Positions 7,734 to 14,560 of a stretch of 38,984 bases of DNA are shown here, piece after piece. A program made the position numbers and the translations under genes. Within the stretch, counting starts at the first letter, position 1. Each line of letters opens with the position of its first letter. The notes beneath the pieces are model-generated. The model was given only the letters and a program-made list of their open reading frames with translations. It did not search any database and had not been told where the DNA came from. The DNA is from Desulfobaccales bacterium (lineage in GTDB: Bacteria; Desulfobacterota; Desulfobaccia; Desulfobaccales; 0-14-0-80-60-11). Where the stretch lies: positions 1-38,984 of the forward strand of contig JAUXZG010000035.1 in NCBI GenBank assembly GCA_030694005.1. Direction: 5' to 3'.

Positions 7734-7980
7734 CTTTAGTCCATGTCTAAGCTAAACATGTTCGTTGTTAAGTCCTGAGTCTTGACCTTATCTTATAACA
7801 TCCTTTGACCAACTGGGGATGTTCATGCAGATATCTCTTTTCCCCTATGCTGTCAAGATGAGAGAAAGTTCATGTCCTGGACAGTCAAAAATATAACGTT
7901 TGCCCTGACCGATATCTGGGGATAATGTCATATCCCTGCTTATTGAAATTTCCCCACCAAATGCAGCCCTTTTCAGTATG

Positions 7981-8041
7981 CAAATCATATCTTCAATTCG
8001 CTGGAATTTCTGAGAAGTTTCGGTTTTAGCAAGGTATATTG
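7981..8041. repeat. Dispersed repeat B, copy 1
   Basis: GAATTTCTGAGAAGTTTCGGTTTTAGCAAGGTATATTG, matching 14001-14059. Confidence 0.65.
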
Positions 8042-8200
8042 CATTCGCTATTGCGCTTAGCGGCGTTAGCTTGAGCCGCTGATTAGCTATTCCCCCTGTC
8101 AATAATAGATCTTGCCACAAGGTCTCTTCGAAGCTTTCATGTGTATTCTCCTTCTTCAAACGGTTTCGGTCTGTTGGACACCAGCGTGCGATTCAAGGCA

Positions 8201-8253
8201 GCTAAATACCTGAGCTCAGCCGCAGCGCCCTCGGCTGCAGCGATCTGTTAGGC
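8201..8253 (-). other. attC-like (integron recombination) site, apparently degenerate
   Basis: Minus strand GCCTAAC-AGATCG-CTGCAGCCG-AGGGCGCTG-CGGCTGAG-CTCAGGT-ATTTAGC; box spacing and extrahelical base match the canonical attC layout, but the last 7-mer departs from GTTRRRY. Confidence 0.55.
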
Positions 8254-8292: not shown

Positions 8293-8766
8293 CTAGGCAA
8301 CGCGCAGTTGCGCCAGCGATGCACGAGTGCTACCACCGCTTATGTCCGGCACAATCTTCAATTCGAGCGCCGTTACACCGTCGAGATCGATGTCGTAGTC
8401 TTCGACCTCACGTGCCGCCCCCGGCGGACTGAAGTTATACTGCTGGCGCGAAATCTCTCGGTAAGACTGACCGCCGTCTGCTGACCACCGTAAAACGAAC
8501 TCTTGCGTGCGCTCCTGCTCACCTTCATGGAACACTAGGTGGATTCGCCTGAGTCTCAGCGGCTCATCAAACAGGAGGCGGATCGTCTGCTCCCCAGGCT
8601 GCGCGGCCCGCCAACCCGAGCCCATACCCGGAATCAGTGCCGATTCAATCGAGTAGTCGACATCTTCGGACGTGATTTCGACCTGTGCCAAGCGTTCAAG
8701 GTCTACCCAGCCGTGCTCGGCGGCTGAGACCTCACGAGGGCCATGACCGATAATGCGCTTGCGCAT
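8293..8766 (-). CDS. Small protein with a possible galactose-binding-like/XRCC1-N-like beta-sandwich fold
   Basis: MRKRIIGHGPREVSAAEHGWVDLERLAQVEITSEDVDYSIESAL...TIRLLFDEPLRLRRIHLVFHE; GAGGT Shine-Dalgarno before ATG at 8766. Confidence 0.65.
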   Translation of the reverse strand: MRKRIIGHGPREVSAAEHGWVDLERLAQVEITSEDVDYSIESALIPGMGSGWRAAQPGEQTIRLLFDEPLRLRRIHLVFHEGEQERTQEFVLRWSADGGQSYREISRQQYNFSPPGAAREVEDYDIDLDGVTALELKIVPDISGGSTRASLAQLRVA

Positions 8767-8860
8767 AGTGTACCTCCTCATTCCTCACTCAACATAACAA
8801 TTTAACATTATATATTGAGTAGATAATACTTTTTTCGCCCAACTCACCTAGATGAACGAA

Positions 8861-9106
8861 TTATAGGATGTGGGGCCAAACTGCCGCCACTACTATGTGG
8901 TTATCGATGTGGTCGAAAAACGATTCTTTGCTAAAACCTTCGAGAAACAATTTTTCTTCTATTTTTTTCAGTCGGCCCGGCGCTGCTTCTATTTTTTCCA
9001 TCACTTCCGAGAGTTCCATTAGTTTAGCGCTTAATTCTTTTAGTTTGGCTTTGGCTTCCAGAAGTTCCTCTTTTGCTTGTGCTATTTCCTTTTTGGCTTC
9101 CTCCAT
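8861..9106 (-). CDS. Small coiled-coil protein
   Basis: MEEAKKEIAQAKEELLEAKAKLKELSAKLMELSEVMEKIEAAPGRLKKIEEK; AGGAGAGG upstream. Confidence 0.6.
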   Translation of the reverse strand: MEEAKKEIAQAKEELLEAKAKLKELSAKLMELSEVMEKIEAAPGRLKKIEEKLFLEGFSKESFFDHIDNHIVVAAVWPHIL

Positions 9107-9188
9107 CTCACCTCTCCTTTGATCCGGCGCCTCAATGGGCCCATCCAAAAACCCGATTGCCTGGCCGGTCAGTTCGCCTATCAGAATT

Positions 9189-10667
9189 TCATTCTTGACC
9201 TACCCCCGTAATCAGGTCCCCGAGAATCCGGGCGGCCCAGAAAAAGATATTGTGTTCCCGGACCCAATGGCGCATGGAGGCCATGCGGACAGCTTTTTCT
9301 TCGGGCGAGTCCTCCAGGGCTTTATAGAGGTTGTCAGCGATCTCCTCAGGATTAAAGGGGTTGATGCTATATGCCCAGCTCAATTCTCGGGCCGCGCCGG
9401 TAAAGGGGCTGAGGAGCAGAGCGCCGTCGCCGTTCACCCGGCTGGCGACGTATTCCTTGGCAACCAGATTCATGCCGTCGTGGAGGGAGCTGACCACCAT
9501 GACATCCGCCAGGCAGTAATAGGGGACGATCTCTTCCTGGGAAAGGTGGGCCTTGACCACGATGACAGGCTTCCAGCGGCCATAGGCGTATCGGCTGTTG
9601 ATCTCCACCTCCAGGGAATCCACCAGGGCGTTGAGCTGCTTGTACTGCGGGATATTCAACCGGGATACCGGCCCTAGCTGGATAAAGGTGAAATGCCCCT
9701 GGTACTGGGGATACTTCTGGAAAAAGATATTGACGGCTTCCAGGCGTTCGGGGATGCCCTTGGTGTAGTCGAGCCGGTCGACTCCTAGACCTACTTTCAG
9801 CCCGCTTAGGTTGAAGCGGTGGCGCAGCTGCGCGATCTGGGCCTGGGTGTCCTCGGCAGCGGCAAAATTCTCGAAGCGCTCAAAGTCGATGCTGATGGGA
9901 AAGGGCCGCACCCGGGTCTCTTTGCCCTGACGGAAAATGGCGTATTTTTCGTAATCCACCCGAGCCTCCAGGATCCGTTCCACCGTATCGAAGAAGTTAT
10001 TACAGTGGTATTGCAAGTGGAACCCCAGTAAGTCGTTGCCCAGCAACCCTTCCAGGATTTCAGTGCCCCAGGGGCAGATGCGGAAGACCTCGAAACTAGG
10101 CCAGGGAATGTGCCAAAATTGGCAGACGATCAGTCGGGGGTCGGCCTCTTTGAGCATCTGGGGCAGCAGGGCGAAATGGTAGTCCTGGATGAAGACAATG
10201 GTCCGCCTGTCCCTCACTTCAGACAGGATGGCATCGGCAAACTTCCGGTTGACCTGACGATAAACCTCCCAATGGGCGGGGGAAAACAGGGGGCGGGCAT
10301 AGCAGACGTGACACAAGGGCCAGAGGGCCTCATTGGAGAAGCCATAGTAGTAGCCGTTTTCTTCTTCCCGGGTCAGCCAGAGCCGGCGCAACTTATATTT
10401 GGGGTTATGGGGGGGCACCATGATGGTATCTTGCCCCACGACGGCCTCCTGGTCGGCTTCGCCACTACCGGCGGCCACCCAGGTGCCGCCGGTGGTCTGC
10501 ATCAAGGAATCCAGGGCGATGGCCATACCGCTGGCGGGCATAATGACCTCCACCTCCCCGCCCCGGTAGATATGCATATAGGGTTCGCGATTGGACACCA
10601 GGATGAACTGGTAGTCACTAAACTTTTTCTGAACCAAATCCTTTAAACTATCCTTGTTCCACATCAT
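9189..10667 (-). CDS. otsA: Trehalose-6-phosphate synthase (GT20)
   Basis: 492 aa; FILVSNREPYMH, GVDRLDYTKGIPERL, SLHDGMNLVAKEYVA. Confidence 0.92.
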   Translation of the reverse strand: MMWNKDSLKDLVQKKFSDYQFILVSNREPYMHIYRGGEVEVIMPASGMAIALDSLMQTTGGTWVAAGSGEADQEAVVGQDTIMVPPHNPKYKLRRLWLTREEENGYYYGFSNEALWPLCHVCYARPLFSPAHWEVYRQVNRKFADAILSEVRDRRTIVFIQDYHFALLPQMLKEADPRLIVCQFWHIPWPSFEVFRICPWGTEILEGLLGNDLLGFHLQYHCNNFFDTVERILEARVDYEKYAIFRQGKETRVRPFPISIDFERFENFAAAEDTQAQIAQLRHRFNLSGLKVGLGVDRLDYTKGIPERLEAVNIFFQKYPQYQGHFTFIQLGPVSRLNIPQYKQLNALVDSLEVEINSRYAYGRWKPVIVVKAHLSQEEIVPYYCLADVMVVSSLHDGMNLVAKEYVASRVNGDGALLLSPFTGAARELSWAYSINPFNPEEIADNLYKALEDSPEEKAVRMASMRHWVREHNIFFWAARILGDLITGVGQE

Positions 10668-10709
10668 CTGCCCCTCCCTTTGGGTGGCAAATTTGGGACT
10701 CGCTACAGG

Positions 10710-11933
10710 TTACAATTCCATAATCCTCTCGGTCGGATTTTCCCGTAAAATCATCAGGGTAAGATAGTCCCGGATCTTGCGGGTGATGAGAAAATGATGG
10801 CGGACGAATTCTCGGGCCATCTTGCCCATGCGCCGGGCCATTTCCGGCCGGTGCAGGAGATAGCGGATACGAAAGGCGCAGCCCTCCGGGGAATGGACTA
10901 GAAACCCGGTATTATAGTCCCGGAGCTGCAGCACAATACCGCCCACCGCGCCGCCGATAACCGGTTTGCCCTTCCACATGGCTTCGGTGACGGTGAGACC
11001 GAAGCCCTCCCGGGTGGACTTTTGGACAATGATATCGGAGGCCCGCTGCAGGGCATTGACTTCATGGTGGGCGTCCGGCGGCAAGAGAAGGATCTGGATA
11101 TCCGGCTCATCTTTGGCGGCTTCCATGACCTCGGCAAAGATGCGGGGCCCTTCCGGATCATCGATGGCTTCCCCGCCAGCCAGAACCAGCTTACAGGGGG
11201 TATGGCGCCGCACCATGCGAAAGGCCTGGATTACTCCCACGGGATCCTTAAAGGAATCAAAGCGGGAAACCTGCAGGATGATGGGCTTATCCCGTTCGAT
11301 GCCCAGGCGGTCTAGAACTTTCCGGACTTCCGCGGTGCTCAGGTCCCGGTTCTTTTCGCTCAAGGGGTCGATGGAGGGGCGGATGAGATACTGGGGGTGG
11401 GGCAGATTCTGGGCGAACTGGGACATGGAGAACACCGAGGCCTCATATTGGCTGACGATCTCCTGCAGGAATTTCCAGACCAGGCGCTCTGGCCGGGAGG
11501 CATCGATGTGGCAGCGCCAGATCCAGTGTTTGGCTTGGGGACGGAGAAAATTAATCAGATAGGCGGGCTGAGGGTCATGCACCAGGACAAAATCTGATTC
11601 CCAGGTAAACTTGCGGGCGTTCTCCCGATTAATCTCCCGGTAATGATCCAGCATGTCGGGGGAGAGATGTACCTTATAGCCTTGCAGGGCATTATGCATG
11701 GCCTTGGTGATCTCAAAGAACTCCTGATCTCCATGGATCACTTCCCATTTGACATCCAGCCCTAACTGTTCCAGTAAGGGGACGGCCCGGTCTAGAATTT
11801 CTGCCACCCCGCCCCCGGTGCGGGTGGAATTGATGTGGATAAATCGCCGGGGGCCTAGACGGTCCGCCAGTCGTTGGAGCTGTTCGATCACTTCCTGACC
11901 CACGACGGGGGCATAATCATTGAGTCCGATCAC
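10710..11933 (-). CDS. GT4 glycosyltransferase, trehalose glycosyltransferring synthase (TreT)-like
   Basis: FIHINSTRTGGGVAEILDRAVPLLEQLGLDVKWEVIHGDQEFFEITKAMHNALQG; C-terminal STREGFGLTVTEAMWKGKPVIG. Confidence 0.8.
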   Translation of the reverse strand: MIGLNDYAPVVGQEVIEQLQRLADRLGPRRFIHINSTRTGGGVAEILDRAVPLLEQLGLDVKWEVIHGDQEFFEITKAMHNALQGYKVHLSPDMLDHYREINRENARKFTWESDFVLVHDPQPAYLINFLRPQAKHWIWRCHIDASRPERLVWKFLQEIVSQYEASVFSMSQFAQNLPHPQYLIRPSIDPLSEKNRDLSTAEVRKVLDRLGIERDKPIILQVSRFDSFKDPVGVIQAFRMVRRHTPCKLVLAGGEAIDDPEGPRIFAEVMEAAKDEPDIQILLLPPDAHHEVNALQRASDIIVQKSTREGFGLTVTEAMWKGKPVIGGAVGGIVLQLRDYNTGFLVHSPEGCAFRIRYLLHRPEMARRMGKMAREFVRHHFLITRKIRDYLTLMILRENPTERIMEL

Positions 11934-12609
11934 AGAGGTCTCCCAGATGTTGATGAATCAGCCCTAAAAGGGTGTCCCGGATTTCTCTCAAGCTATAGAA
12001 GTAAATATCTATGCCACGGATGGCGGCAACCAACTCCGGCAGACCGAAGTTGGTCTCAATCCAGAAGGAAAAGTCATCGGCTTTGCGCACCCCCAGGCGC
12101 CAGCGGGCTTCAAAAAAATGATAATACATAGAATCCAACCCCACTTTCCGCAGGCTCTCGCAGAACTCCAGCAAGGTATGGGCGCGGATCTGAGAGCGCA
12201 TCACCACGGTGGAGGCCTCACAGAAATGAAACTCAAACCCGGAGCGAGCCCAGGGCACATAGGGGATATCCCAGAGGTACTCCTCCAGGATGTCCACAAC
12301 GGCCTGGCGGACCTGGGCCAGATTGTCATAGTCAAAGGGGTCAAAGGAGCTGAGCTTCTCGGCCAGCTTGGAGTCTTGCAAGGCGTTGGCAGCCCACCGG
12401 GCAAACTCGTTGGGATATTCCTCCGCCGGCTGGGTGATGGCCAGGCGGGACTGAAAGATATGGTAGTAGAGGACCGATTCGTCAAGCTCGCGGAGGGCCT
12501 GAAGCAACTCCCTGAGATTATGCGCCTTTTTCCCGATGGGCATGGGCATGAGAAAACATTCCCGGAACCAAAAGGGATTTTCAGCCGGCTGATCTGGACT
12601 AATTTTCAC
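11917..12609 (-). CDS. DUF5752-like protein of unknown function in a trehalose cluster
   Basis: 230 aa with internally repeated LLQALRELDESVLYYHIFQSR / LLEFCESLRKVGLDSMYYHFFEAR segments; family name from memory. Confidence 0.6.
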   Translation of the reverse strand: MKISPDQPAENPFWFRECFLMPMPIGKKAHNLRELLQALRELDESVLYYHIFQSRLAITQPAEEYPNEFARWAANALQDSKLAEKLSSFDPFDYDNLAQVRQAVVDILEEYLWDIPYVPWARSGFEFHFCEASTVVMRSQIRAHTLLEFCESLRKVGLDSMYYHFFEARWRLGVRKADDFSFWIETNFGLPELVAAIRGIDIYFYSLREIRDTLLGLIHQHLGDLCDRTQ

Positions 12610-13403
12610 GGTTTCTCCTCCCCCTGGGTTGCGAGCAAGGCCAAAAACTCCCGCACTTGCGCTGGATTCTTGAGAAAATGGGTGGCCTTGGTAGGCTGCT
12701 CTTCGTCTCCCACTTTGAAAGATAGACCTTGTTCCTGAATCACTGCAAAAACACTTTTATCAGTAGTATCATCCCCTAGATACAAAGGAAAATATCCAAC
12801 AAAATAAGAAGATAGCAAGATCTTCTGAATCGCCTCACCCTTGTTTACTCCGTAGGGCAAGACCTCCATCACCTTTTTCCCTCGAAGAAGCTGGTAGGAC
12901 CCAGACTCAACTATATGTGCCTTCCAAGTTTCTATAATCTTTAGGAGTTGGTCTTCCTGCCCTGGAGAGGCTTGCCGGTAATGGAGGGCAAAACCCTGGG
13001 GTTTGTCTTCTATCCACCAGCCGGTAAAATGCTCTAAAAGTCCGGCTAACTGTTTTTTCCACCCAGAAATTTCTTCTGAGGCAGATTTCATGTTTATTAA
13101 ATTCAAGGGCTTTCCGGCAATCAGGCCTTCTCCTCCATGGGAGCCAAGATAATTAAGTCCAGGGATAGGCAATAATTTAAGTAAATTTTGTAGAGGTCGG
13201 CCGGAGACCACCACTACTGCATAATCGAGCCGATTAATGAGGCGGGCCAGTAGTCGCAAAAGCCCAGGAGTGGGGTAGGCTAACTCAGGGCGAGGGGCAA
13301 TCTCTACCAATGTGCCATCATAGTCTAACAGCAACAAGAGCTTTCGCCCTTGCCTACGGCCTTGTACCATTCTCGCAAAGAAGTCAACCGGCTGTGCAAG
13401 CAT
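12606..13403 (-). CDS. otsB: Trehalose-phosphatase (HAD superfamily)
   Basis: LLLLDYDGTLVEIAPRPELA, VVVSGRPLQNL, YLGDDTTDKSVFAVI. Confidence 0.92.
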   Translation of the reverse strand: MLAQPVDFFARMVQGRRQGRKLLLLLDYDGTLVEIAPRPELAYPTPGLLRLLARLINRLDYAVVVVSGRPLQNLLKLLPIPGLNYLGSHGGEGLIAGKPLNLINMKSASEEISGWKKQLAGLLEHFTGWWIEDKPQGFALHYRQASPGQEDQLLKIIETWKAHIVESGSYQLLRGKKVMEVLPYGVNKGEAIQKILLSSYFVGYFPLYLGDDTTDKSVFAVIQEQGLSFKVGDEEQPTKATHFLKNPAQVREFLALLATQGEEKP

Positions 13404-13672
13404 TGTTCTTAAAGACTTTAAGCTGCCTTGGATTGCCCGGGTGAGATAAAAGCCTGGGATGGTTGATGGCTGCGCCTTGAACGCAATCCTGCGGCGCTCT
13501 TCCTATGCACATTTTCCAACAAAAGTTGGGGCTTCGGGAGGGCTGAATGGAACTGCCTACCCGAGTCTTTTGGTAAGTATACCTTAAATCTGAGAAAAAT
13601 ACTGTCAATCAACTGCAATCAACCCGTAAGGAGAGCTAGTTGGTTGGAATAATCTGGCGAGGGTATCGATAT

Positions 13673-13700
13673 CTGTTATGAACCGAAACTTATCAAACCG
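13673..13700. repeat. Dispersed repeat A, partial copy 3
   Basis: CTGTTATGAACCGAAACTTATCAAACCG. Confidence 0.55.
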
Positions 13701-13834
13701 ATTGCTGATCGAGCTAAGGTCAAGCTCGCCAGAGATTGTTGTCCCAACACATTCCCATAAAAGCGGATGTCGACCAGTAGTTGTCCAGGCCGAGCCCTGA
13801 ACGGTGTGCCCAGATCCCCACAAAATGCAACTAT

Positions 13835-13891
13835 CTGCTATGACCAGAAACTTATCAAACGGCTGGAAATTCCATCTATCTGGATTATATC
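13835..13891. repeat. Dispersed 57-bp repeat A, copy 2
   Basis: CTGCTATGACCAGAAACTTATCAAACGG...GGATTATATC; equal length to copy 1. Confidence 0.8.
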
Positions 13892-14000
13892 GAAACTTCT
13901 TGGCCTGAAGATTTCCTGGCATTATCCCCCAGCACTCCTGCTTTCTCCTATCTCTGACTGATGGAATCTCCTCCACCATAAGTTAACCGTTTCGATATGT

Positions 14001-14059
14001 GGATCATATCTACAACTCTTTAGAATTTCTGAGAAGTTTCTGTTTGGCAAAATATATTG
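14001..14059. repeat. Dispersed repeat B, copy 2
   Basis: GGATCATATC...GAATTTCTGAGAAGTTTCTGTTTGGCAAAATATATTG. Confidence 0.65.
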
Positions 14060-14173
14060 AGTTTTACAATATAAAATCTGCTTAACTATTTTATAAATGT
14101 ATGAGGACATCCTATTATTTATAGGGACTCAATAGGAGACCTCGAGAGGCTACCGACAATTATTTTAATTAGC

Positions 14174-14201
14174 TTGACATTGGGCAATTTTATTGTAAAC
14201 T
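14174..14201 (+). promoter_or_regulatory. Predicted sigma70-type promoter of the cspA leader
   Basis: TTGACA, 16-nt spacer, TAAACT. Confidence 0.6.
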
Positions 14202-14252
14202 ATAAAAAGTTTAGCATGTCAGACTGAAGCCGGGCCACAAGTCCTGGACAGG

Positions 14253-14290
14253 AATCGGACGGGGATGCTAATTCCCCGCCGATTTTTTTT
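14253..14290 (+). terminator. Intrinsic-terminator-like hairpin inside the cspA leader
   Basis: AATCGGaCGGGGA-TGCTAAT-TCCCCGcCGATT followed by eight T. Confidence 0.75.
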
Positions 14291-14356
14291 GCCTGACTGC
14301 TGTGCGCCCTGCTTTTTTGGCGGGATATCATTGCAGTATCTGCAGGAGGTTTCACA

Positions 14357-14560
14357 ATGAAGGAAACTGGTACGGTAAAATGGTTTAATGACTCCAAGGG
14401 CTTTGGCTTTATCACTCGGGAAAGCGGTCCGGATGTGTTTGTGCATCACAGTGCCATCCAGGGCGACGGCTTCCGCTCCCTGGCAGAAGAACAAGCCGTG
14501 GAATTTGAAGTAACCCAAGGTCCCAAGGGGCCTCAGGCCCAAAACGTGGTAAAGCTTTAG
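14357..14560 (+). CDS. Cold-shock protein (CspA family)
   Basis: 67 aa; [48 protein letters not shown]. Confidence 0.95.

Follow-up and report, generated by a model that had tools for sequence, protein, structure and literature searches.

A worn attC site behind a retained gene in an integrase-free lineage of the Desulfobaccales, probably the relic of an integron gene cassette

In the window analyzed here, a stretch of 38,984 nucleotides from a Desulfobaccales genome (contig JAUXZG010000035.1 of assembly GCA_030694005.1), a hairpin resembling the recombination site of an integron gene cassette lies behind a gene for a protein of 157 amino acids, which raises the question whether this gene was once a cassette and how it came to stand alone in a chromosome. 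The bottom strand of an attC site, when single-stranded, folds to a hairpin that is recombined by the integron integrase IntI between the G and the TT of the R' box. A preceding sequence-only reading had placed an attC-like site at 8201-8253 on the minus strand, and both its sequence and its coordinates proved to be exact. Read from 8253 to 8201, the site is GCCTAAC-AGATC-GCT[G]CAGCC-GAGGGCGCTGC-GGCTGAGC-TCAGGT-ATTTAGC, corresponding to R'', a 5-nt spacer, the L'' arm, an 11-nt loop, the L' arm, a 6-nt spacer and the R' position (Table 1). As the same reading had claimed, the segment lengths are those of canonical attCs, with spacers of 5 and 6 nt matching the aadB site and sites from Desulfobacterota, and the inner arms pair throughout, leaving a single extrahelical base after the third pair, the same place as in canonical sites. 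Arms, spacers, extrahelical base and R'' are shared with attCs from Desulfobacterota and with the class 1 aadB attC (L112), and near-identical arms were found in the attC of a Desulfobacterota integron (L094:6244-6299 in G065, GTCTAACAAGTCGCTGCAGCCGAC...CGGCTGAGC). Unlike the lone site in the window, however, the Desulfobacterota and class 1 attCs are situated in arrays near intI, and those of class 1 have a canonical R'. The only broken element in the window is indeed the final 7-mer, whereas the inner arms, the spacers, the extrahelical base and R'' are all as in a genuine attC. Since the R' position has neither the GTTRRRY form nor full complementarity to R'', we refer to the site as a worn or hybrid attC and not as an active one. 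The sequence GTTGGAC at 8172-8178, previously mentioned as a nearby core-like 7-mer, is on the strand opposite to the R' of the site, and a search for attC left halves gives no hit at this position, so that it probably occurs by chance.

Table 1. Coordinates of the worn attC site, the gene in front of it and neighboring features on the minus strand of the window.
Feature	Position	Strand	Properties
Putative cassette gene, 157 aa, stand-alone galactose-binding / F5/8C-like beta sandwich (predicted fold)	8293..8766	-	Start at 8766 behind AGGAGG
Probable attC site, R' broken, 53 bp	8201..8253	-	27.1 bits with R1 and 31.9 bits with R2; stands out from the rest of the genome; inner arms pair 8/8, one G extrahelical
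R'' box GCCTAAC	8247..8253	-	Fits RYYYAAC; consensus of relatives also GCCTAAC
L'' arm GCT[G]CAGCC with extrahelical G	8233..8241	-	8/8 pairs with L'; same arms in the real array attC L094:6244-6299
L' arm GGCTGAGC	8214..8221	-	Pairs with L''; missing from the homologous spacer of relatives
R' position ATTTAGC, degenerate or hybrid	8201..8207	-	4/7 pairs with R''; 5/7 to GTTRRRY
GTTGAGT, candidate 5' cassette boundary	8787..8793	-	6/7 pairs with R''; homology with G018 and G013 starts at 8793
GTTGGGC, alternative 5' cassette boundary	8837..8843	-	7/7 pairs with R''; homology with G006 and G021 starts at 8847-8849
Small coiled-coil gene MNEQ	8861..9107	-	After the 157-aa gene and half attC in most relatives; here upstream, behind OtsA

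Statistical support was obtained from two covariance models built here from attCs of other genomes, R1 from 11 attCs of real integrons and the broader R2 from 55 attCs, with no sequence of the window's family included in either training set. R1, which recovered 84 sites with E-values of 1 or less when checked on 47 integron loci, assigned 27.1 bits to the site and 14.7 bits to the next best match in the genome; with R2, the corresponding scores were 31.9 and 17.3 bits. The E-values, which are rough due to the short calibration of both models, were 1.6e-5 for the window and 0.0011 for the genome with R1, and 5.6e-6 and 3.8e-4 with R2, so a significant covariance-model match, as asked for in the sequence-only reading, was obtained with both of these models. 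When R2 was run over 29 genomes of the order as an empirical control, all genomes without a lone attC-like site stayed below 18 bits. Neither R1 nor R2 detected a second attC in the window, and a search of the window with Rfam at gathering thresholds gave no match.

The position of the site relative to the gene is that of a gene cassette, with a single ORF and an attC just downstream in the same orientation, R'' lying 39 nt past the stop codon. The predicted fold of the 157-aa protein (pLDDT 77.5) matched CBM32, F5/8C and XRCC1 N-terminal domains, all of them beta sandwiches, in Foldseek searches (E about 1e-5); no Pfam family was found at cut-off and no NCBIfam model matched. In comparison with homologues, dN/dS values of 0.12-0.42 were obtained, indicating that the gene is kept under purifying selection. 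Its earlier description as an orphan gene turned out to be wrong, as homologues are present at 18 loci in named genomes (Deltaproteobacteria, Thioalkalivibrio, Methylobacter, Pontibacter and Spartobacteria) and in 9 of the 40 genomes covered by a search of relatives. A plasmid search yielded one homologue (42%) in Granulicella, and viral contigs yielded no homologue of the gene and no stretch identical to the attC left half. In several relatives the gene adjoins cspA; in the window, the trehalose genes (OtsB, DUF5752, a TreT-like gene and OtsA) and MNEQ stand between the two (8861-14559).

No IntI above the cut-off was found in the window's genome, a draft assembly of 94.7% completeness. Within the phylum, 107 of 297 sampled genomes encode IntI, and none of these 107 belongs to the window's family or order, indicating that the site is immobile now; together with the mismatch between R' and R'', the lack of an encoded IntI suggests that it should be inactive. 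An intI, or alternatively at least two attCs together, would define an integron or a CALIN, and the locus has one attC in a genome devoid of detected IntI. The sequence-only reading had regarded the lack of any attC or integrase in the genome and its close relatives as an argument against a cassette relic. With respect to the integrase this lack holds for the genome and, within the phylum sample, for its family and order, but lone attCs do occur in the family. The clearest case is G017, where a lone attC with 56.4 bits (R2) belongs to a complete lone cassette with a methyltransferase-like ORF (L155, 557-1572, on contig C195), in a family without detected IntI. There, a GTTAGCC located 25 nt before the start codon forms 7/7 pairs with the R'' GGCTAAC, and perfectly paired inner arms are combined with a hybrid-looking R' of GTCATCT, an anatomy as expected of one circular cassette inserted at a non-attC target. 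Lone, mutually homologous attC-like repeats with 33-38 bits were detected in G007, G018 and G013, and a weaker lone site in G008. A dispersed attC-like repeat of approximately 60 bp, AGCTAACCGGCGGTTGCAGCCGACGGCG...CGCTGAACCGCGGCGTTATCC, was observed in G007, G018, G013 and G017 (L156, L165, L166 and L172) and is 75-92% identical between genera. The window's own genome contains a second worn attC candidate on contig C169 (L171), starting at 1496 with a left-half score of 20.3; it follows a 310-aa ORF without Pfam match, the stop codon of which lies within the R'' GGCTAAC, and has perfect inner arms and a lost R'.

We consider it likely that the gene for the 157-aa protein was once an integron gene cassette, with 8253-8201 on the minus strand as its attC, both now standing alone in the chromosome. 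If IntI was once present, it would have recombined the folded bottom strand of the site between the G and the TT of R'. Insertion of one cassette at a non-attC, attG-like site would leave the inner arms perfect, place the cassette's own TTRRRY at the 5' end and leave host bases in R'; the combination of intact inner arms and a poor R' is common to the window and G017. The broken R' may thus be a hybrid of host and cassette sequence rather than a product of point-mutation decay, a refinement of the earlier proposal of a fossil or inactivated attC marking a cassette relic, which is otherwise well supported. Under the single-insertion model, a substitution is needed to account for the A at the first base of R', a position at which the G of the cassette should stand. 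Two 7-mers of the GTTRRRY type, ending at 8793 and 8843, could mark the 5' end of the cassette; about one such 7-mer per 1,300 nt of strand is expected by chance. In search of an empty site, the DNA preceding the FAD gene in relatives was compared with the window, as was the stretch behind OtsA in G020, and neither shares a junction with it. Insertions of single cassettes at genomic attG sites have been described (Loot et al., 2024, Nat Microbiol, doi 10.1038/s41564-023-01548-y, as cited in PMC12444791) and, as far as they are described in the citing article, resemble the site in the window in their intact inner arms, non-canonical R' and position away from any array. They differ in that position 1 of R' is A instead of G in the window, where a putative insertion is deduced from sequence.

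Alternatively, the site could have arrived by another route and represent the last survivor of an array that decayed at this locus, R' having been lost by decay. It is common for arrays to lack an integrase (IntegronFinder 2.0, PMC9024848) and the frequency of IntI in the phylum is consistent with such an origin, but no second attC is found nearby, the surroundings of the site consist of trehalose and housekeeping genes, and the sister case in G017 bears the signature of a single insertion. This variant of the cassette reading is conceivable, yet we regard it as rather doubtful.

The relatives provide evidence for the age of the site. In most genomes of the same family, the 157-aa gene is followed by the spacer ...GCCTAACAGATCGCTNCAGCCGACGGCGCCGGATCAAAGGAG and then by MNEQ, and homologues in other genera share the left half of the attC in the same place, indicating that the site is old; the right half is absent there, and in most relatives the left half runs into the MNEQ leader. 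A left-half profile made from 28 non-redundant attCs, none of them from the window's family, was run over 911 kb and ranked the site in the window first, with the spacers of G018, G010, G021 and G007 all among the top eight. The consensus of the relatives' left halves, GCCTAACAGATCGCTGCAGCCGAC, scored 27.4 of a possible 32.9, above each single copy and all background. Such scattering of copies around a more canonical consensus fits decay from a true attC. No complete attC was found beside any near or distant homologue of the 157-aa gene, so that the right half is known from the window's genome only, and the star-like, unresolved gene tree dates neither the retention of the right half in the window nor its loss in the relatives.

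These findings could also be accommodated if the left half alone were an ancient attC remnant in the clade of the gene, the right half having been lost in an ancestor by fusion of the gene with MNEQ, and a later rearrangement at about 8225 had joined unrelated DNA that happened to complete the hairpin. Consistent with this scenario, homology to the relatives ends at about 8225, where they continue into MNEQ, and the DNA to the right has no match in the relatives except a short repeat. The presence of MNEQ is labile among the relatives, and its position on the upstream side in the window, behind OtsA as also in G020, indicates that the locus was reshuffled. However, 8/8 inner pairs, canonical spacing, the TCAGGT spacer and 5/7 matches in R' would all have to be products of chance, a combination absent from the 426 kb of other loci scanned, where the inner geometry by itself was found 6 times and never (0/6) with at least 5/7 matches in R'. 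We therefore judge a coincidental right half to be improbable.

That the site is no attC whatsoever but a chance hairpin, a terminator or a spacer element is highly unlikely, since the agreement of its fold energy with that of shuffled sequences (z=0.01), which makes energy folding uninformative, and the expectation of the bare inner geometry about 0.5 times per 39 kb, hence not very rarely, are opposed by genome-wide E-values of about 4e-4 to 1e-3, the next match scoring far lower, by a likeness to the real attC L094:6244-6299 of 21.8 compared to at most 15.4 for shuffles, by the conservation of the left half with an attC-specific consensus in other genera and by the result of a search of the region for terminator-like sites, which found none.

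With a worn attC following a cassette gene that was preserved in a lineage lacking the integrase, the locus is a new example of an already known type of relic. By default, IntegronFinder 2.0 reports only clusters of at least two attCs (PMC9024848). The locus resembles the single-attC CALINs or lone cassettes without IntI (PMC9024848) in having one attC behind one ORF and in lacking IntI both in its vicinity and in the genome as a whole, but differs from them in the broken R' and in that chromosomal homologues from other genera have the same left half. Lone attCs are usually disregarded as potentially false matches, whereas here the site can be verified through homologues of the gene that have kept half of it, which offers a means of identifying ancient cassette insertions where a genome has no integron. 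In addition, the locus suggests that integrase-free lineages received integron genes and retained them as normal parts of the chromosome. More tentatively, a family devoid of IntI might keep and re-use an old cassette gene, with upstream sequences varying across genera, a halved attC serving as leader of a second gene and single cassettes having been inserted outside integrons over long evolutionary time.

MNEQ occurs behind the 157-aa gene, behind OtsA or alone, with different upstream sequences, and a conserved stretch extends up to about 160 nt past its stop codon, which gives it the appearance of a module that moves on its own. Another repeated element was observed at 7928-8041 of the window, within a 104-aa ORF. 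Divergent versions of its DNA recur at 13946-14059, on the contigs C190 and C171, and also in G002, G010 and G017. These copies constitute an undescribed dispersed repeat or a small gene family.
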